Source of the DNA: Hydrogenophaga sp.
Lineage (GTDB): Bacteria > Pseudomonadota > Gammaproteobacteria > Burkholderiales > Burkholderiaceae_C
Direction of reading: 5' to 3'
Length of the DNA stretch: 64,000 nucleotides
Assembly: GCF_018780385.1 (NCBI RefSeq)
Contig: NZ_JADMJO010000007.1
Location: forward strand, 1-64,000
In this document: piece after piece, positions 32,133 to 52,789 of the stretch
Position numbering within the stretch: the first letter of the stretch is position 1
Layout: each line of letters opens with the position of its first letter
The notes under the pieces: generated by a model
Told to the model about the DNA's origin: nothing
The model's database searches: none
What the model saw: the letters and a program-made list of their open reading frames with translations, nothing else
Made by a program: the position numbers and the translations under genes

Positions 32133-32216
32133 GTGAATGACGGCTCTTGGCCGATTCCTGAAGTCTAGCTTTGGAGCTGGGGAACAGCTACCCATCAAGA
32201 TGGGATCGCCGGCCGC
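32133..32216 (+). repeat. ~84-bp structured dispersed repeat, copy A
   Basis: First of four copies (others at 43742, 44433, 52551). It starts GTGAATGACGGCT, has TTGGCCGATTCC, then a hairpin AGCTG-GGGAA-CAGCT and an inverted repeat CCCATC-AA-GATGGG, and ends GGGATCGCCGGCCGC. The outer GGCCGATTCC can pair with the GGGATCG...GGCC end. Not coding. It sits just before an integrase fragment. Confidence 0.85.
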
Positions 32217-32231
32217 TTGCGGTGGACGGGA

Positions 32232-32388: not shown

Positions 32389-33137
32389 GCATTCTGGGCG
32401 TATGAACGGGCGGGGCAGGGTGAGCATCCCACTTCAACCTGTCTTGTCCCAGCAGGGGCACGCTAAATCTGCGGTTATATGTAGACGCCGTGCTCCTTGC
32501 ACACCAGTTTACTCCGGACGAGTTGAGTGCCTTGCCGTGTTGCAAGGAGTTCGATCGGCCGTTGCCCGCGGAAATCCTCGTGCCCTTCGAATTACCTTCG
32601 AGCGATTGCTCGGCTTCATTAAAAGGGGTGAAGTTGACCTGACGTAGAGAAATCGAAGGCAAGCCATTCCGCGACTTTTCAGTGGCAAACCTGTTCCGGT
32701 GATGAACTACTTGATATAAAAACTAGACCGATGTCGGATGAAACGAGGCGGCTGCGCCGTGTCGGTGTACCAATGCATCCGCAAAGAGGGTCTCAGTTTC
32801 TGCCGTCGTTCAGATCGGGCGGAGCAGATCTCCCGTCACCCCGGCACTTCCGAGAATAATAAAAGTCATATAACTAGCGGTCACTTCATGCCCAGCAGAC
32901 ACGCGATCCTGAAAAATCTGGGGTGGCGGGGGGCCCTTTGGTTGACCTTTCTGTTTTTTCTATTTTCCATCTCGCATCTTTGGCGCCGCTTTGCCTCGAC
33001 TTCTATTGTGTTTTTTGGTTCTGCAGAAGAGGTTTATCAGGATAGAGGGGGAGCAAGACTTGATATAAATAGCTATTCATATATCTTTATTTCCACGAAG
33101 ACCCACCTCCCCAGCAACCCATGCTTGCATCACCGCC
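32389..33137. other. 750 bases without a convincing gene, partly AT-rich
   Basis: No frame matches a known protein. From about 32860 to 33120 the base composition drops well below that of the surroundings, with stretches such as ATATAAATAGCTATTCATATA. The 12-base sequence ACTTGATATAAA occurs twice, at 32709-32720 and 33058-33069, both looking like -10 promoter elements. The second may drive the operon that starts at 33138. A possible frame from 32888 (MPSRHAILKNLGWRGALWLT) has one hydrophobic stretch but loses coding character and is not called. Confidence 0.4.
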
Positions 33138-33569
33138 ATGAACCCACCGAACCGCCAACCCTTTGTCCTGGGCAGTGGGCTGCACGATGTGCCCCTCGAT
33201 GTGGGGTGCATCTGCCCGGTCTTCGGCCGCGAGGAGGTCGCCAACCCGCGCGTCGGGCGCTGCGTCGATGACCTGATGTACCTCTCGAACTCCGCCGAGC
33301 ACTTCCTCGCGCCCATCCCCGATCTGTGGGCCATCTTTCTGCTGTCCCTGACGCCGCCCGCGCCACCGGTGGACATCGGAGAGGGCAAGTTCGCGCGCCG
33401 GCACGACCCCGGCGCCTTCAAAGGCCTGCTGATGGAACAGCTGCACGAGATGAACAACCTGCACCAGCTCCACGCGCTCGATATGCCCACGCGACAGCGC
33501 ATCTTCCAGAGCGCCATGTCTGCGGTCGACGCCACGACCATGGGCCACCCGGAAGGGCCACAATCATGA
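33138..33569 (+). CDS. Unknown protein, first gene of the recombinase-like/DnaB module
   Basis: A 143-residue protein starting MNPPNRQPFVLGSG. It has no signal peptide or clear membrane helix, though LAPIPDLWAIFLLSL near residues 57-71 is hydrophobic. The last third (LLMEQLHEMNNLHQLHALDMPTRQRIFQSAMS) is helical. I do not recognise the family. Its stop codon overlaps the next start as ATGA, so the two proteins are made together, which suggests they interact. High GC in all codon third positions supports a real gene. Confidence 0.6.
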   Translation: MNPPNRQPFVLGSGLHDVPLDVGCICPVFGREEVANPRVGRCVDDLMYLSNSAEHFLAPIPDLWAIFLLSLTPPAPPVDIGEGKFARRHDPGAFKGLLMEQLHEMNNLHQLHALDMPTRQRIFQSAMSAVDATTMGHPEGPQS

Positions 33570-35068
33570 AAACCCGCCAGCCCCCCCGCGCGCCATCACC
33601 CGCTGACGTGGACGGCGGCGCACCGCGCAAACGCGGCAGGCCGCGCATCCACCCCCTGACAACCCCGCTGCCGCCCGAGTTGCCCCCTCCGGTGCCACCC
33701 GCGCGGGGCCGTACCCATCCCAATGCTCCCAGCCACGAGGAGGTCATCCACGGGTATTCACAGGTGTGCCGGACCCGGGTGGAGCCGAAACCGTTGAAAC
33801 AGAGCAGCGTGCGCGCCAATGCCGTGCTGTGGGGCGCCTGGTGCCGCTGGCTCGCTGCCCAAGCCCTGCACTGGAGCGACACAACGCCGCAGACCGTCAG
33901 CACGTTTCTCAGTGGCCCGGCGCCCAGCCTGCGCCGCCAGCACCGCCCCGCGCGCAACCCCTCCAGGATGTCCAGCCTCACCCAGGTGCGCTATTTCAGC
34001 GTCCTCAAAGGGGCCTACGAATACGCCAAACACAAGAAATGGATCGATGAGGCGCCCACCGTCGGTGAGCTGCAGCCCGAGTACGTGGCCAAGGATGCAC
34101 AGGGCGGGGTGTTGCCCCCCGGGGTGCTTGCGCGCCTGCAGAACACGCGCCAGCTGCAGGAGATCTTCTCCCCCACCTCCGACACCAAAAGCCACTGGCG
34201 ACTGCTGCGCGACCGCGCCGCCGTGGCGCTGGTGGCCGAGTGCGGCATCACCACGGCCGAACTCATCGAGCTCCAGCTGCGCGACCTCGGCGCCGGCCCC
34301 CACACCATCCTCCAGGCCATGGCCCAGGCCGCGCAGCGCACGCTGCCGGGCAGCGAGCGCGAAGGCACGCCACCCACCCCCACCCTCAACCTGATCAACC
34401 CGGCCATCGACAACCCGGCAGGTGCCCGCATGCCCGCCGCCCCGGTGGTGCTGACCGTGCGCCCCTCCCAGCCCCACAGCGAACGCGCCCTCAACGGCCG
34501 CAGCTTCGTGCTGCCCGCCCGGGTGTGCGAGGTCTTGCTCCCGTGGGTGGCGCAGCGCGAGGCGATGCTCACCGACATGGCCGCCAGGCACGTCCCGCTC
34601 GCGCGCCGGGAGTCCCACTTGAAGAAACACAGTCTGAACGGGCCGCTGTTCCCGTCGCGCCAGTCCCGCAAAGACGAGGAGGGACAACCGATCAAGGACC
34701 GGTTTTTCCCGATGGAGCCGGCAGCGGTGTACCTGATCTTCAAGCGCGCGTTTGCGGGGCTTGACCCCGCCACAGGCGAAGGCGTTCGGGGCACTCCGCG
34801 CACCGCGCAAGGGACCTCGGTGATCCGCAACACCCTGATCCACCACTGGCTGCGCACCATGCCCGAAGAGGAGGCAAAGACCCGCGCAGGCTTCAAGACA
34901 CTGGAGGGCATGCGCGTGATCGCGCGCGCCGCCGGCATCACCACGCAAAGCACGACCAGCCCCGATTCCAAAGCCCAAGGCGAGATCGCGGGGGCAGACA
35001 ACCGCATTGACAAGAACGGGCAACCCGGCCAGAAAACGGTACGCCGCGAAAAAGGAAATGGCGCGTGA
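33566..35068 (+). CDS. Degenerate tyrosine-recombinase-like protein with AT-hook
   Basis: A 500-residue protein. Near residue 22 it carries KRGRPRIHP, an AT-hook-like DNA-binding motif, within a Pro-rich leader. Residues about 60-170 resemble the core-binding domain of phage-type integrases (YFSVLKGAYEYAKHKKWIDEAP). Residues about 205-480 resemble the catalytic domain (RDRAAVALVAECGITTAELIELQLRDL; later TSVIRNTLIHHWLRTMPEEEAKTRAGFKTLEGM), but the first catalytic Arg (usually in TGLR) reads GIT, the HxxR box is not normal and no C-terminal catalytic Tyr is seen. It is therefore probably a DNA-binding relative without strand-transfer activity. Both its ends overlap neighbours (ATGA, GTGA), so it is translationally coupled to a DnaB helicase. 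Confidence 0.65.
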   Translation: MKTRQPPRAPSPADVDGGAPRKRGRPRIHPLTTPLPPELPPPVPPARGRTHPNAPSHEEVIHGYSQVCRTRVEPKPLKQSSVRANAVLWGAWCRWLAAQALHWSDTTPQTVSTFLSGPAPSLRRQHRPARNPSRMSSLTQVRYFSVLKGAYEYAKHKKWIDEAPTVGELQPEYVAKDAQGGVLPPGVLARLQNTRQLQEIFSPTSDTKSHWRLLRDRAAVALVAECGITTAELIELQLRDLGAGPHTILQAMAQAAQRTLPGSEREGTPPTPTLNLINPAIDNPAGARMPAAPVVLTVRPSQPHSERALNGRSFVLPARVCEVLLPWVAQREAMLTDMAARHVPLARRESHLKKHSLNGPLFPSRQSRKDEEGQPIKDRFFPMEPAAVYLIFKRAFAGLDPATGEGVRGTPRTAQGTSVIRNTLIHHWLRTMPEEEAKTRAGFKTLEGMRVIARAAGITTQSTTSPDSKAQGEIAGADNRIDKNGQPGQKTVRREKGNGA

Positions 35069-36651
35069 AACACGACGAGTTCGAAGACATCAGCCAGCCC
35101 CCGCCGCCCGGTGGCGGCCTGTTCGACCCGACCCCGCGTTCCAACGGCGCAGAGCCGCAGGCCGAATTCGCTTCTGCGCGAGCCCAAGCCCATGGGAACA
35201 CGCCCCGGCATCAGCAACGCACCGTCCACGCTGCCCCCGCGCCCATCGAACCGCCTTCCAGTTTTGACGCGCCCGATTCCTTCAGCGCGGCTCCCGGCGA
35301 TGCCGGCACCGCCCTGCTGCGCGTGCCCCCGCACTCCGTGGAGGCCGAGTCGAGCGTGCTGGGCGGCTTGCTCTTGGACAACAGCGCCTGGGACCGGGTG
35401 GGCGACCTCCTGCGCCCCGACGATTTCTACCGATACGAGCACCGGCTGGTGTTCGAGACGGTGGAGCACCTGGTCAACGCGTCTCAAGCCGCCGATGTGG
35501 TCACGGTTTTTGAGCGCCTGCGCAGCCTGGGCAAGGACGAGAGCGCCGGCGGGCTGCAGTACCTCAACTCGCTGGCCCAGTACGTCCCTTCGGCCGCCAA
35601 CATCCGCCGCTACGCCGAGCTCGTTCGCGAGCGCGCCATCCTGCGCCGCCTCATCTCCGCCAGCGACGAGATCGCCACCTCCGCCATGAACCCGCAGGGG
35701 CGCGACGTGGCCACCATCCTCGACGAGGCCGAGCAGAAGGTGTTTCACATCGGGGAGCAGGGCTCCCGGATGAAGGACGGCTTCCAGTCCATGCACAACC
35801 TCGTGGCCCAGCTGATCGACGATGTCTCGGCTCGGGCAGACAACCCCAGCGATGTCACCGGCGTGCCCACCGGCTACATCGACCTGGACCGCATGACCTC
35901 GGGGCTGCAGGCGGGCGACCTGGTGGTGCTGGCCGCGCGTCCCAGCATGGGCAAAACCGCCTTCGCCATCAACATCGCCGAGCACGTGGCGCTGCACGAG
36001 GACAAGGCGGTGGCGGTGTTTTCGATGGAGATGGGGGCGTCCCAACTGGCGCTGCGCATCGTGGGCTCCATCGGGCGCATCCACCAGAGCCACCTGCGCA
36101 GCGGCAAACTCACCGACGATGAGTGGCCGCGGCTCACCGAAGCCATCGAGAAACTGCGCAACGTGCGCCTGCACATCGATGACAGTCCGGGCCTCAAACC
36201 TTCCGAGCTTCGCGCCAACGCGCGGCGGCTGGCTCGACAGACAGGCGGGCTGGGGCTGATCGTGGTCGACTACCTGCAGCTCATGAGCGGCAACAACGAT
36301 GGGGACAACCGCGCCTCCGAGATTGGGGAGATTTCGCGCGGCCTGAAGATGCTGGCCAAGGAACTGCAGTGCCCGGTGATTGCGCTCTCGCAGCTCAACC
36401 GCAGTGTGGAAGCGCGAGCCGACAAGCGTCCGATGATGAGCGACTTGCGCGAGTCCGGCGCCATCGAGCAGGACGCCGACATCATCATGTTCATCTACCG
36501 CGATGAGTACTACACCAAGGATGCTTGCAAGGAGCCAGGCGTTGCCGAAATCATCATCGGAAAACAGCGAAACGGCCCGACCGGAATTGTCAAGCTCGCC
36601 TTTTTAAGCTCGCTGACTCGCTTCGAAGACATGTCGAACATGGACTACTGA
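35065..36651 (+). CDS. dnaB: Replicative DNA helicase DnaB (accessory, element-borne copy)
   Basis: A 528-residue hexameric helicase of the DnaB family. The N-terminal helical domain begins near residue 90 (PPHSVEAESSVLGGLLLDNSAWDRVGDLL); the RecA-like motor has Walker A AARPSMGKT near residue 294, Walker B LIVVDYLQLM near 398, and LSQLNRSVEARADKRPMMSDLRESGAIEQDADIIMFIYRDEYY at the end. It is longer than chromosomal DnaB (about 460-470) owing to an 85-residue Pro/Gly-rich leader. It starts at a GTG overlapping the preceding stop. A second dnaB in accessory DNA normally serves replication of a plasmid or integrative element. The usual chromosomal neighbours (rplI, alr) are absent. Confidence 0.9.
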   Translation: MKHDEFEDISQPPPPGGGLFDPTPRSNGAEPQAEFASARAQAHGNTPRHQQRTVHAAPAPIEPPSSFDAPDSFSAAPGDAGTALLRVPPHSVEAESSVLGGLLLDNSAWDRVGDLLRPDDFYRYEHRLVFETVEHLVNASQAADVVTVFERLRSLGKDESAGGLQYLNSLAQYVPSAANIRRYAELVRERAILRRLISASDEIATSAMNPQGRDVATILDEAEQKVFHIGEQGSRMKDGFQSMHNLVAQLIDDVSARADNPSDVTGVPTGYIDLDRMTSGLQAGDLVVLAARPSMGKTAFAINIAEHVALHEDKAVAVFSMEMGASQLALRIVGSIGRIHQSHLRSGKLTDDEWPRLTEAIEKLRNVRLHIDDSPGLKPSELRANARRLARQTGGLGLIVVDYLQLMSGNNDGDNRASEIGEISRGLKMLAKELQCPVIALSQLNRSVEARADKRPMMSDLRESGAIEQDADIIMFIYRDEYYTKDACKEPGVAEIIIGKQRNGPTGIVKLAFLSSLTRFEDMSNMDY

Positions 36652-36701
36652 TTCACAGTCGTCAACACTCAAACTGAACCCAACCTGGAGAGCTTTCGGC
36701 A

Positions 36702-37895
36702 ATGGCCGCGGTGATGATCATGGCGTACGACGCGCTCGGCGAGATCCGTTTCGTCGGTGATGTGACCAAGGGGGCAGGGTGCGGCTGCTTCTGCCCGACC
36801 TGCAAAAGTCCGCTGGTGGCCAAGCAGGGCAACGAGTACGAATGGCACTTCGCGCACGAGGCCTCACAGGAGCGTCCCGAGTGCGCGGTCGGCGCGGAAA
36901 ACCTCGCACGAAGCCTCGGCATCGAACACCTGCGCCAACTGCACGCGCGCGGCGCGCTGGTGCTGCCGCTCTACACGACCAACGCCAGCATGAGCACGCT
37001 GTGGCTCTCCCGATCGCAGCCGGTGACATGGGGTGCGCAGCTGGTGGGACCCCTCACATGGCGCGATGCGCCGACCAAGGACCAGCCGGTGGCCACCGGA
37101 ATGCTCGAGACGGGCGCGCCGATGACGTTCTTCGTCCAGGTGGGCGGCATGTCCAGCCCTTCTCTGGACGATCTGCCCGAGGACTGCGCCTACGCCACGT
37201 TGGTGGTGGTCCCTTCGTGGCCACGCGGAACCAGAACGCGCCAGGAGGCGATGGCCGCACTCACGCAAACCGCGCAGATCCACTGGGGCTACCAGCCCGA
37301 CTCGTACGGCATGCGCGCGTCGGCTCAACGTGAGATCGATGCGATGGAGCGGCGGGCGCACGAGATCGCCGCCGAAAACGAACGCCAGCGCTCGCTGGCG
37401 GCGGGCATGCGTTGGGCGGCCATCGCCAAGGCCAGAAGCCACAACTTGGCGGCTGCGCTCCAAGCCAGTCCGCACGGTGCGATCACGCCCCCACAAAACA
37501 CCGCAGCGGCGCCGCCGCCGATGAGCCGGGTTCCGGCCAAGGCCGATCCCGAAGCCCGCTTCCCCCAGTACCCGGGCCATGCACCAGGCTGCAACTTCCA
37601 GTACTTTCGCCTCGGCCCCCAAGAGGCCTGGGTGTTTTACGAACTGGACAAAGAGTTCGTCACGCAGCGCGGCATGGCGCCTGCCGCCGACAAGCCACAG
37701 AAGGTCTGGGGCATTGCGCCGGCGCATGGACACACCGAGGGATGGGATGAATGCCTGCCGCCCAGCGTGGGCAGGGGCGACATCGATGCGGGCATCTACT
37801 GGGTGCGTGACCTCATGTCCGCAGTCGGTTTCCTGAGCCCGCGCTCAAAGGGCTCCAGCTCGGGCCACGATCCCGCAGAGTTCGATGGCCTGTGA
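36702..37895 (+). CDS. CoiA-like competence/nuclease family protein
   Basis: A 397-residue protein whose first 90 residues fit the CoiA-like pattern: a zinc-ribbon-like CGCFCPTCKSPLVAKQG, then YEWHFAHEASQERPECAVGAENLARSLGIEHLRQL, which places His and Glu as in the predicted nuclease core of that family. The middle contains a coiled-coil stretch (REIDAMERRAHEIAAENERQRSL, about 208-230), followed by a Pro-rich linker and a C-terminal domain (NFQYFRLGPQEAWVFYELDKEF) that I do not recognise. A TGGAGAG site lies before the ATG. It follows dnaB by 50 bases in the same direction. Related proteins process incoming DNA in competence; here it may act on element DNA. Confidence 0.65.
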   Translation: MAAVMIMAYDALGEIRFVGDVTKGAGCGCFCPTCKSPLVAKQGNEYEWHFAHEASQERPECAVGAENLARSLGIEHLRQLHARGALVLPLYTTNASMSTLWLSRSQPVTWGAQLVGPLTWRDAPTKDQPVATGMLETGAPMTFFVQVGGMSSPSLDDLPEDCAYATLVVVPSWPRGTRTRQEAMAALTQTAQIHWGYQPDSYGMRASAQREIDAMERRAHEIAAENERQRSLAAGMRWAAIAKARSHNLAAALQASPHGAITPPQNTAAAPPPMSRVPAKADPEARFPQYPGHAPGCNFQYFRLGPQEAWVFYELDKEFVTQRGMAPAADKPQKVWGIAPAHGHTEGWDECLPPSVGRGDIDAGIYWVRDLMSAVGFLSPRSKGSSSGHDPAEFDGL

Positions 37896-38211: not shown

Positions 38212-38490
38212 ATGGTGGATCGTGGGAGAGAAATCGCCCACGACCTGTCGCTGCTGGGCTCTGGTGCTGCCGCCTACATCGGTTGCCGCGACGAGGACAT
38301 CGTTCTCATCGCTTTCACCTTTGCATGGTTTGTCGCCTTTTCGACAATCGCAAACAGAGCTGCCCTTTGGGCCACAGAGCTACGTGACCGCGATGAGAAA
38401 AAGGCACATCGAAAGATGGCTGGAACCATGCGCAGCATTGCTCGTGACGTCGTCCGCGCTGAGCTTGAGCGAAGCAAGAAGGACCTTTAG
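38212..38490 (+). CDS. Small membrane protein of unknown function
   Basis: A 92-residue protein starting MVDRGREIAHDLSLL with a central hydrophobic helix (DIVLIAFTFAWFVAFSTIAN, about residues 28-47) and a long basic, Lys/Arg-rich C-terminal helix (ELRDRDEKKAHRKMAGTM). The nearest AAGGAG is 18 bases before this ATG, which is rather far; no better start is in frame. It is followed two bases later by another small membrane protein. This and its two neighbours form a compact set that ends at the terminator at 38804. Confidence 0.5.
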   Translation: MVDRGREIAHDLSLLGSGAAAYIGCRDEDIVLIAFTFAWFVAFSTIANRAALWATELRDRDEKKAHRKMAGTMRSIARDVVRAELERSKKDL

Positions 38491-38492
38491 AA

Positions 38493-38771
38493 ATGAATGG
38501 CCTCACGCGAAGCACAAGCCGTTGCGTTTCGTGGGGCACGCCCTACAATCATCACATCAACATGCAGCACATACTGAACACGATCATGTCAACCGCCGAT
38601 CTGCTCAAAATCATCATGCTCGTAGGCATCATCTTCGCGCTCTTGGCCAGCCGTTGGATCAGCAAGCAAACCGCAATCCTGGCCGAAGAAAATCGCCGCG
38701 CGGATCAGAAGATCGACTATCTGGAAGATCGTTCGACGCCCTCTGGGCGCCGCGCTAGAGCAGACGCTTAA
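38493..38771 (+). CDS. Small membrane protein with coiled tail
   Basis: A 92-residue frame with one membrane helix (LLKIIMLVGIIFALLASRWI, about residues 37-56) and a charged helical tail (AEENRRADQKIDYLEDR). AAGGA lies nine bases before the first ATG, inside the preceding gene. The first 22 residues look non-natural, so translation from the ATG codons at 38562 or 38586 (MSTADLLKIIM) is also possible. Function unknown; the topology is like small phage or toxin-related membrane proteins, which is only a resemblance. Confidence 0.45.
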   Translation: MNGLTRSTSRCVSWGTPYNHHINMQHILNTIMSTADLLKIIMLVGIIFALLASRWISKQTAILAEENRRADQKIDYLEDRSTPSGRRARADA

Positions 38772-41599: not shown

Positions 41600-42047
41600 G
41601 TGGATGTGGCGCCGCGCTTGACATGTTGCATCCGTCCGGCCATGAGAATTTGTTCCTCCGGTGCACAAAGCCCGAAGGTGAGGGCGCCCATGCCGCGCTT
41701 GCCCATGAGGCCAGGCGGTCCAAAGAGGTGATGGCGTCCTTGGCGATGCCCTTGTCTGTTATCCAGGCGTCGATCAGCGCATTGCCGAAGTCGTCGGGGA
41801 GGGCGTCGGCCAGGAGCGCGGGCAGGCGCTTGAACGTCGGCTCGGGCAGATCCGTGAAGATGAAGGGCTCGCGGGCTTGCGCCAAGGGCATCTGCAGCGG
41901 TGCCAGTTCAATGCCGCTCCTCACCCACGCCGGGGCGTATTGGAAGGCGTAGTAGTTCTTCGTGGGCTCGCGCGCGACGGCGCCCACCAGTTTTCCCCAC
42001 GCTCTGACCTCTACGGCGTCGACGCTCTGGTGGGGGTTGAGTCCCAC
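41600..42047 (-). pseudogene. HipA-type kinase, N-terminal remnant
   Basis: The translation AVEVRAWGKLVGAVAREPTKNYYAFQYAPAW, then SGIELAPLQMPLAQAREPFIFTDLPEPTFKRLPALLADALPDDFGNALIDAW, is the N-terminal domain of HipA-like serine/threonine kinases of toxin-antitoxin systems. After LDRLA the frame shifts; the next frame gives MGKRGMGALTF, the expected continuation, and the match stops soon after. The kinase core and the partner hipB are missing. A one-base change plus truncation have left only this third of the gene. Confidence 0.85.
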
Positions 42048-42123
42048 GTGTCCTCGTGGCGAGCGTTGACCAGACGCCAGAACTGCGGCCCCGGCGCATC
42101 AGGCGATGCTTGACGCGAGATGA

Positions 42124-42306
42124 GAGCGACAGGCTCGCGCCCTGGACCAGCCCGCGGCCGAGCCGGCCAAGCGCGCCAGCAAGTACGGCAACCAGAAAAC
42201 CGTGGTCGACGGCATCACTTTCGACAGCAAGGCCGAGGTCGCGCGCTGGGTGGAGCTCAAGACCATGGAACGCGCCGGCCTCATCACCCATCCGCGGGCG
42301 CCTGAC
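42124..42306 (+). pseudogene. DUF1064-like (phage nuclease-type) remnant
   Basis: About 45 codons read SKYGNQKTVVDGITFDSKAEVARWVELKTMERAGLI, the conserved N-terminal block of DUF1064 proteins from phages and mobile elements, whose conserved acidic residues suggest a small nuclease. Upstream the frame is closed by a TGA at 42121 and no start precedes the block; downstream the sequence changes to unrelated residues after THPRAP. So it is a fragment. The same frame runs open to 42921 but without further family features. Confidence 0.6.
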
Positions 42307-43543: not shown

Positions 43544-43741
43544 TGGACTCTCCGAGAAAAATGGCTGCATAAAGGTGTGCTGCCGGGAATTTTTTGGAGC
43601 CTGCGTATTTCGGACCACCTGGACACCAAGTTCGACACCGTTGACATAAAGTTCGGCACCGCAGTCAACGAACTTCACCGGCCACACTGAAGAGAACCCC
43701 ACGAGGCCCACTGATCGCTTGAAAAGGCTGGCGATACATAG

Positions 43742-43825
43742 GCGGCCGTCGATCCCATCTTGATGGGTAGCTGACCCCCAGCTCCAAGGCTAGACTTCGG
43801 CACTCGGCCATCAGCGGCCATTCAC
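43742..43825 (-). repeat. ~84-bp structured dispersed repeat, copy B
   Basis: Minus-orientation copy of the repeat at 32133. The hairpin loop differs (AGCTG-GGGGT-CAGCT) while the stem is kept, and CCCATCAAGATGGG is identical. The left end reads GTGAATGGCCGCTGATGGCCGA. Confidence 0.85.
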
Positions 43826-44432
43826 CTCGTCGTGTCTATCGTCAACACTGACTTCGGACGTTCGTCGTCAAAGTTGATTCGCAAGCGCAAGCGAAGCGCC
43901 TAAGTGTCCTTGTCATTAAACGGGGCCTTTTTAGCCGACGATCTTCGCTACCGCTCCCAAGATGGTCGCCCATGGAGTTGATGGGTCATCCAACATGTGC
44001 ATGGTCTCGATGGTCGATGGAAGTTTTCTCCTCCCCCATTTGGGGTAGACACGTCTTTGAGCCAGAACGTACCCTGCAATCCGCAGCGCTGAACCGGTGT
44101 TACAAAGCAACATGGAAATTCGCGGTCAAGCGAATAGAACCCGTCGAAACACAGACCTCAGTCCCAGTACACGTTATCTATGCGCCCGGCGATGAATTCA
44201 GATGACGCGTCCACTTTTGGGTCAGAGCAGTCAAGCTTCATTCGTTCGCTGTCGGCGCGACGTGTTTTTTTCTCAGCCTTGTTAGCAGCATCGTTCACCT
44301 CTGACTCGAGGGAGCAAGTGCCACTGGTTCTGATCGCGTCGATTAGCACGCTTGAGCCTGTATCTAAGCGCAGCGAATGCGTAACTCAGGCGGAATAGAT
44401 ATCAACACCACTGAACGGCACGGGTCTTGTAA
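43826..44432. other. 600 bases between two repeat copies, no gene seen
   Basis: Flanked by repeat copies B and C in the same orientation. Several short frames exist on both strands but none has a ribosome site with plausible protein character. GC content is lower than in the catabolic regions. Two same-direction repeat copies enclosing a short non-coding segment resemble a cassette or a deletion remnant. Confidence 0.4.
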
Positions 44433-44517
44433 GCGGCCGGCGATCCCATGTTGATGGGTAGCTGTTCCCCAGCGCCAAGGCTAGACTGCAGGAATCGGCC
44501 ATGAGAGGGCATTCAAC
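44433..44517 (-). repeat. ~84-bp structured dispersed repeat, copy C
   Basis: Minus-orientation copy. GCTG-GGGAA-CAGC stem is kept; the second inverted repeat is CCCATCAACATGGG, which still leaves five paired bases. Ends in TTGAATGCCCTCTCATGGCCGATTCC on the minus strand side. Confidence 0.85.
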
Positions 44518-52550: not shown

Positions 52551-52632
52551 GAAGGACCGGTTGTGGCCGATTCCCGAAGTTTGGCCTTGGAGCTGGCGAA
52601 CGGCTACCCATCAAGATGGGATCGCAGGCCGC
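52551..52632 (+). repeat. ~84-bp structured dispersed repeat, copy D
   Basis: Plus-orientation copy, the most diverged. Stem AGCTG-GCGAA-CGGCT keeps pairing through a G-T pair, and CCCATCAAGATGGG is identical to copies A and B. It lies in the 355-base non-coding gap between the hydrolase and the kinase gene; nothing else was seen in that gap. Confidence 0.8.
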
Positions 52633-52789
52633 TTTCCATTGACCGTCAAGATGAACGAGAGAGGCCGAACGCCAGAAATCCAGTCACGCCAATTACGACC
52701 CAATCCGGACCCTCGGTGTGGCACAAGGCCATGTGAGTCGCTAATTTCTCGCGTACGCCAAAGCAGCTACTCTGGCGCCCAGCGACAAA

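Follow-up and report, generated by a model that had tools for sequence, protein, structure and literature searches.

An inactive tyrosine-recombinase homologue encoded with a DnaB helicase next to a conserved inverted repeat in a plasmid-type operon of Comamonadaceae

The locus described here lies in a stretch of 64,000 nucleotides (nt) from Hydrogenophaga sp. (hereafter referred to as the window), which was compared with related loci and stretches designated by L-numbers. It consists of four consecutive genes, encoding a protein without family match (open reading frame 1, ORF1), an inactive homologue of the tyrosine recombinases (hereafter referred to as REC), a DnaB helicase and a CoiA-like protein, preceded by an AT-rich region containing an inverted repeat (Table 1). 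A previous interpretation of the DNA, made from the letters alone (hereafter referred to as the sequence-only reading), had placed the four genes correctly and had described the first three as overlapping; we found the ORF1/REC junction to be ATGA (33566-33569) and the REC/DnaB junction to be GTGA (35065-35068). Searches of family libraries provided no match for ORF1, which is about 45 residues shorter than its counterparts in L009 and L031, and no Rep family match for REC; neither protein had a PADLOC defence match. Both DnaB domains (PF00772 and PF03796) were detected above the Pfam cut-off, together with a Walker A motif, ARPSMGKT. The Pfam match of the N-terminal domain starts at residue 88, so that the DnaB leader, previously given as 85 residues, is present but about 87 residues long. 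The CoiA-like protein had been read as a zinc/nuclease protein: the zinc part holds, with a match to CoiA_N (PF25164) over the cut-off (E=1e-7), whereas no Pfam nuclease match was obtained at E values up to 1; a weak match to DruB was found in PADLOC (E=0.0016). No RNA family was detected at the locus at E values up to 1.

REC belongs by homology to the tyrosine recombinase superfamily, through sequence matches that are weak: an NCBIfam match to XerC/XerD (XerC, E=1.8e-4, far under the curated cut-off) and, in a profile search of the PDB, a match to XerD 1a0p (E=0.0035). The AlphaFold model, of moderate quality (pLDDT 65.9, pTM 0.51) and with N-terminal helices and a mixed C-terminal part, is compatible with this superfamily. 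The tyrosine-recombinase homology in the sequence-only reading is thus supported at the sequence level. In an alignment of REC with the XerC, the XerD and a third recombinase of the same genome, five catalytic positions were scored (R, H, R, H/W and Y; the catalytic Lys lies outside this set). Only Arg II is kept, Arg I being replaced by T, His by S, His/Trp by F and Tyr by I; the first Arg and the Tyr had already been reported missing, and the other two losses are new. REC, with one of five positions conserved, is thus not a catalytically active tyrosine recombinase. The same four positions were lost in all 21 of the REC-family rows aligned, the XerC and XerD of the same genome being intact, which indicates an old, inactive lineage rather than one decayed gene. 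Two further sequences (L100 and L101), dropped from this alignment by the filter, likewise lacked Arg I, His and the Tyr at the site on inspection by eye. Despite its dead site, REC is under purifying selection, as judged from the dN/dS ratio between the window and L030 (0.29 for REC, 0.10 for DnaB and 0.20 for CoiA). Residues 23-26 read RGRP, which we take to be an AT-hook core, in line with the AT-hook seen previously.

Table 1. Positions of the genes and upstream features in the window
Feature	Position	Strand	Description
Repeat left arm	32858-32878	.	AT-rich, 24% GC, decayed; aligned to the left arms of L008, L031 and L032
Inner motif GAGGTTTATCAGGA..AGGGGGAG	33029-33053	+	By alignment; 0-2 mismatches in the window, L008, L009, L031 and L032
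Promoter-like site TTGATA-16-TATCTT	33060-33092	+	-10 inside the right arm (33072-33092)
ORF1	33138-33569	+	143 amino acids (aa); internally shortened relative to relatives; without family match
REC	33566-35068	+	500 aa; inactive tyrosine-recombinase homologue; N-terminal AT-hook core (presumed)
DnaB	35065-36651	+	528 aa; GTG start; plasmid-type helicase; leader opens VKHDEFEDIS
CoiA-like gene	36702-37895	+	397 aa; CoiA_N zinc-domain protein
Two small downstream ORFs	38212-38771	+	92 aa each; relatives in L009, L030, L031 and L032

REC is rare. It was found in four of 72,556 plasmid records (two of which seem to duplicate a single plasmid) and on eight genome contigs; none of 50,697 phage records and no viral contig matched, and a phage or virus source was therefore rejected. 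With the own genome counted, four of 399 genomes of the order contained REC at E≤1e-5 (two weakly), and 25 of 399 genomes of the family had profile matches at E≤1e-10, mostly partial and distant. Among the hosts, the genera Hydrogenophaga, Polaromonas and Rhodoferax are named, as well as one unassigned Burkholderiales bin. Twelve close loci were defined (the window, L008-L010 and L030-L037). DnaB directly follows REC in seven of them, the window counted; ORF1 precedes REC in seven (L030 being truncated at that point), and the CoiA-like gene is found downstream in four; L034 and L035 end inside dnaB. The order ORF1-REC-DnaB-CoiA also occurs on plasmid pPBL-H3_B2-1 (L009) and in L031, and such recurrence exceeds what chance would explain. 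The sequence-only reading had envisaged a conserved gene order and an integrative element or plasmid as its setting; the multi-gene order recurs, and relatives do lie on plasmids. Two further members, L123 and L124, had no dnaB on the stretches fetched; L124 carries ORF1.

Three complete plasmids with REC are available (pPBL-H3_B2-1, pBPS33-1, corresponding to L008, and JS666 plasmid 1), with sizes of 320–360 kb. Two of the three are typed as conjugative, and all three encode relatives of MobH elsewhere; PLSDB types pBPS33-1 as non-mobilizable. The published account (PMC7039861) presents pBPS33-1 and pPBL-H3_B2-1 as unclassified megaplasmids sharing no similarity. At the protein level, however, the two have at least three proteins in common: REC, a large helicase (73%) and MobH (60%). 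This helicase/methylase-like protein of 1,719 aa (L009 3441-8597), with weak matches to the DISARM and BREX helicases, is encoded ahead of the module and in the same direction in pPBL-H3, pBPS33-1, L031 and L034, and JS666 plasmid 1 has a relative of it about 45 kb upstream. On a Diaphorobacter plasmid (L018 8977-11473), dnaB is directly followed by a distant, inactive relative of REC.

The AT-rich stretch that had been pointed out upstream of the genes (32860-33120) is real: its GC content is 46%, against 62.7% for the whole window, and only 0.06% of 261-bp windows are as low. It is a special non-coding stretch and forms the core of a conserved region, a repeat of two inverted arms separated by roughly 110-200 nt, or 53-55 nt in L123 (about 53-199 overall). 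The arms are of the type AATAAAA..ATAACTAGC / GCTATTCATATATGTTTTATT in the window, L008, L031 and L032, TTGGTAATTAAAG in L009, and GGTGTAGATTGAA in L010, L034, L036 and L037; the arm sequence thus differs between REC groups, as defined by similarity and not from a REC tree. The window left arm has five mismatches in 21 positions to the right-arm consensus in inverted orientation, and the inner motif sits upstream of REC/ORF1 in the five loci in which it was found. Apart from L030, which is cut, upstream sequence is available for 11 close loci; a repeat was recognised in 10 of these, L033 being without one. The arm pair occurs once in each complete plasmid, and only at the module, with 3-4 mismatches allowed. 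The exact Polaromonas-type arm pattern had matches in six of seven host genomes searched, located at the rec locus in G400 and G402; those in G399, G401, G404 and G405 look like chance occurrences, and no partner arm was found in L091-L093. L123 has a near-perfect inverted repeat at REC and, about 7 kb from REC on the same contig, a Rep_3-like match (L123 1-457).

The strength of the repeat was assessed with an 18-nt arm and 100 shuffles for each of 19 upstream regions. Six regions (L031, L009, L010, L037, L019 and L123) beat all of their shuffles. The arms of the window, L008, L032, L034, L035 and L036 were recognised by alignment and not by their own strength: as many as 6 of 100 shuffles were as good for L008 and L036, 10 for L032, 23 for L035 and 62 for L034. 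The corresponding values were 28 for L124, 55 for L033 and 42-100 for the distant L117, L121, L125, L126 and L128; L117-L122 and L125-L128 reached 12-13 of 16 arm matches at best.

With a loose threshold, eight of 11 loci have a -10 box in the right arm; the number falls to six of 11 when at least nine of 12 matches are required. A stricter scan of 5.5 kb of the window identified two promoter-like sites, one per arm (0.6 expected). Symmetric divergent promoters were rejected as a general feature, the left-arm promoter being found in the window only. A promoter at one arm, with about 200 bp between inverted repeats, would suit an invertible promoter flipped by another, active recombinase; the four aligned Hydrogenophaga-type loci are collinear, however, and no inverted copy was seen among the few loci compared, so that we give this explanation hardly any credence.

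The restriction of the outward left-arm promoter to the window leaves complementarity to the right arm as the constant feature of the left arm, as expected for a promoter of single-stranded DNA similar to Frpo. The arms would pair when a single strand enters the recipient, creating a double-stranded promoter for early expression of ORF1, REC, DnaB and CoiA during establishment. According to PMC11541004, promoters of this type have -10, -35 and UP elements, and complementary regions form part of their folded structure. Folding of single-stranded DNA (L034 was left out) paired the arms on both strands in seven of the 10 loci given, with z scores down to -4.8; it was strongest in L031, L010, L037, L019 and L123, and only about -1.5 in L009 and L036. 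Against this, the window, L008 and L032 fold no better than shuffles (z from +0.1 to +2.6), although one L008 strand still pairs most of its arms, and four of the six -35 bases are unpaired in the L031 model. Moreover, if the origin of transfer (oriT) adjoins mobH, the module would presumably enter late. The loci that fail to fold have a shortened or missing ORF1, but the pattern is loose, because no ORF1 is seen in L037, L019 and L123 either, and these fold well. On balance, a Frpo-like function is a possibility that we consider rather unlikely.

The repeat might also be an oriT itself, with REC as the accessory protein of a mobilisation site. The arrangement resembles that of the recombinase-like relaxases TcpM, MobK and MpsA, the oriTs of which lie upstream of their genes according to PMC9299015, and a conjugative type is assigned to two of the three complete plasmids. 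REC, however, lacks the Tyr and Arg I that MpsA reportedly keeps (same source), and MobH relatives are encoded elsewhere on all three plasmids; we regard this reading as improbable.

The sequence-only reading had proposed that the AT-rich stretch was a candidate replication origin and REC an origin-binding initiator or helicase loader. The presence of DnaB in the same operon, the low GC content of the repeat region and, in L037, the position of a Rep_3 gene immediately before the repeat and REC would fit such a function. Nevertheless, each of the three complete plasmids encodes a separate TrfA or Rep_3 initiator at a distance of 83-103 kb from the module. On pPBL-H3_B2-1, trfA lies at 3.4 kb, with an oriV-like array of 15-16 iterons just upstream (L011 2032-3321), and the module at 87 kb; on JS666 plasmid 1, TrfA is at 157 kb, a weak Rep_3-like match at 101 kb and the module at 54 kb; on pBPS33-1, a Rep_3-like match is at 338-339 kb and the module at 241 kb. 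Neither ORF1 nor REC has a Rep match, no iterons were found at the repeat (window 32600-33700), the DnaA box TTWTNCACA is absent from window 32601-33200, and the three direct repeats of L037 lie upstream of its Rep_3 gene instead of at the repeat. Likewise, the detrended GC-skew minima, at 1 kb (pPBL-H3), 42.5 kb (pBPS33-1) and 130 kb (JS666), are 3, 44 and 27 kb, respectively, from the main initiator, with distances of 86, 140 and 76 kb to the module, although skew is noisy in such mosaic plasmids and carries little weight. With initiators and iterons elsewhere and no DnaA box, an origin at this stretch was rejected as the principal explanation: the repeat is probably not a replication origin, and an initiator or loader role for REC there appears very improbable.

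The DnaB of the window is 81% identical, over residues 79-524, to the other DnaB of the genome. In a FastTree phylogeny of 26 DnaB sequences (17 family sequences being labelled chromosomal by assumption, and four of the 21 given loci having been dropped by a motif filter), the DnaBs of the window, L030, L031 and L009 formed one clade (support 0.93), and that of the Polaromonas locus L036 paired with a DnaB taken as chromosomal, that is, as the host's (support 0.94). These two placements suggest that the linkage between REC and DnaB probably arose at least twice, by separate captures of host dnaB; this is the likeliest reading of the tree, but not proof. The DnaBs of the first clade share the leader, with an acidic start (HDEFEDIS, QDDFDDV, IEDFDDI), whereas those of L034 and L036 have none. 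The single-stranded DNA-binding protein (SSB) encoded on pPBL-H3 ends in DGFEDVTQTFV, and the start of the leader resembles this tail (window 35065-35094, L009 13288-13314, L031 9403-9429, L011 33735-34382); we presume the motif to be SSB-tail-like.

The explanation that we favour, which we hold to be about as probable as its opposite, is that the operon is an accessory unit of large, mostly conjugative Comamonadaceae plasmids, in which REC, its chemistry lost long ago, has been retained as a sequence-specific DNA-binding protein. REC would recognise the inverted repeat just upstream and so control its own operon. The arms matched to REC groups, the presumed AT-hook in the group whose arms are AT-rich and the location of the -10 box in the right arm all fit the binding of REC to its own promoter region, and suggest the reuse of a disarmed recombinase for DNA binding. 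Coupled translation would tie the dosage of REC to that of DnaB, so that REC would govern the plasmid's own DnaB, a capture from a host chromosome, and may position it locally; this DnaB might help the plasmid to replicate or establish itself beside a conventional TrfA or Rep_3 initiator encoded elsewhere. Several observations weigh against this explanation. DnaB does not follow REC in five of the 12 close loci, and, of the three complete plasmids, pBPS33-1 and JS666 plasmid 1 have no DnaB_C, from which it follows that REC cannot exist for DnaB alone. The variable arm spacing does not favour a rigid loop. Thirteen of the 19 upstream regions did not beat all shuffles, the window repeat is not significant by itself (15 of 100 shuffles as good), and no repeat of this kind was detected in front of L033, L124 or most of the distant relatives. 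A more specific version, in which REC would bridge both arms and hand the co-translated DnaB to the site, through the acidic, SSB-tail-like motif of the DnaB leader as the contact, is conceivable by analogy with the way TnsF calls the Tn7 machinery, but seems unlikely; if true, it would make recombinases a source of replication adaptors.

The window copy itself looks like a plasmid remnant, with a shortened ORF1 and a decayed repeat. No TrfA was found in the own genome, nor, in searches run without a positive control, any relative of the pPBL-H3 MobH or of the large helicase, which points in the same direction; among transfer genes, the search covered MobH only. To judge from the sequence comparisons, the genes have nevertheless remained under constraint since the split from L030. 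The remaining 42 kb of the contig look metabolic from the ORF list. At 41672-42131, the window contains two fragments, 93% and 90% identical to the pPBL-H3 hipA and RES-domain genes, which are joined here at 42038 but separated by about 4.2 kb in pPBL-H3. A dispersed repeat of about 73 bp (85-93% identical) occurs at window 32144-32218, 43739-43817, 44421-44510 and 52564-52634, and at L030 8945-9017, with copies in inverted orientation on both sides of the plasmid-like block.

The literature searched contained no account of a REC-DnaB operon. The data describe a family of inactive tyrosine recombinases, carried by plasmids, that is kept by selection, apparently for binding a palindromic site, that was probably joined to host-derived DnaB more than once, and that is shared by two megaplasmids reported to have no similarity. 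Because each plasmid offers a single short site and a single protein, direct tests are feasible for DNA binding, for control of the operon and for recruitment of the helicase. Comparison with known systems places REC beside several of them. TnsF, the target selector of the Tn7-like Tn6022, is likewise an inactivated tyrosine-recombinase homologue; according to PMC10293859, it binds comM DNA in experiment and is needed for transposition. TnsF has N-terminal zinc fingers and targets comM, whereas REC has only two Cys among residues 1-200, the presumed AT-hook core, its own conserved repeat as the putative target, DnaB as operon partner and no tniQ beside it in the window. In L033, a REC relative overlaps tniQ and adjoins an AAA/TniB gene and a TnsA-like match below the cut-off (L033 1866-9143). 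The likely transposase gene of L033 had no transposase match; the element is probably Tn7-like, and its REC relative possibly a TnsF-like target selector of another lineage. TnsF is the precedent for a tyrosine recombinase that can still bind DNA after losing its chemistry, and both TnsF and the overlap in L033 count in favour of a DNA-binding function of REC. TcpM, MobK and MpsA resemble REC in being proteins of plasmids or islands with a cis site upstream of their gene, but are described with the catalytic Tyr and Arg that REC lacks, and the plasmids with REC encode MobH elsewhere (the details of TcpM, MobK and Frpo come from PMC10293859, PMC11541004, PMC9299015, PMC7039861 and PMC6015842). 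As in Frpo, the -10 of the promoter would belong to the stem that a long inverted repeat forms; a difference is that this fold is not seen in the window, L008 (one strand) and L032. Finally, the Rep_3-DnaB pair of the Polaromonas plasmid pE10SP1 provides the same arrangement on a Comamonadaceae plasmid, the gene of a DNA-binding protein overlapping dnaB; there, the partner of DnaB is a Rep_3 initiator, whereas no Rep match was obtained for REC, the gene of which is distant from the initiator in the complete plasmids.

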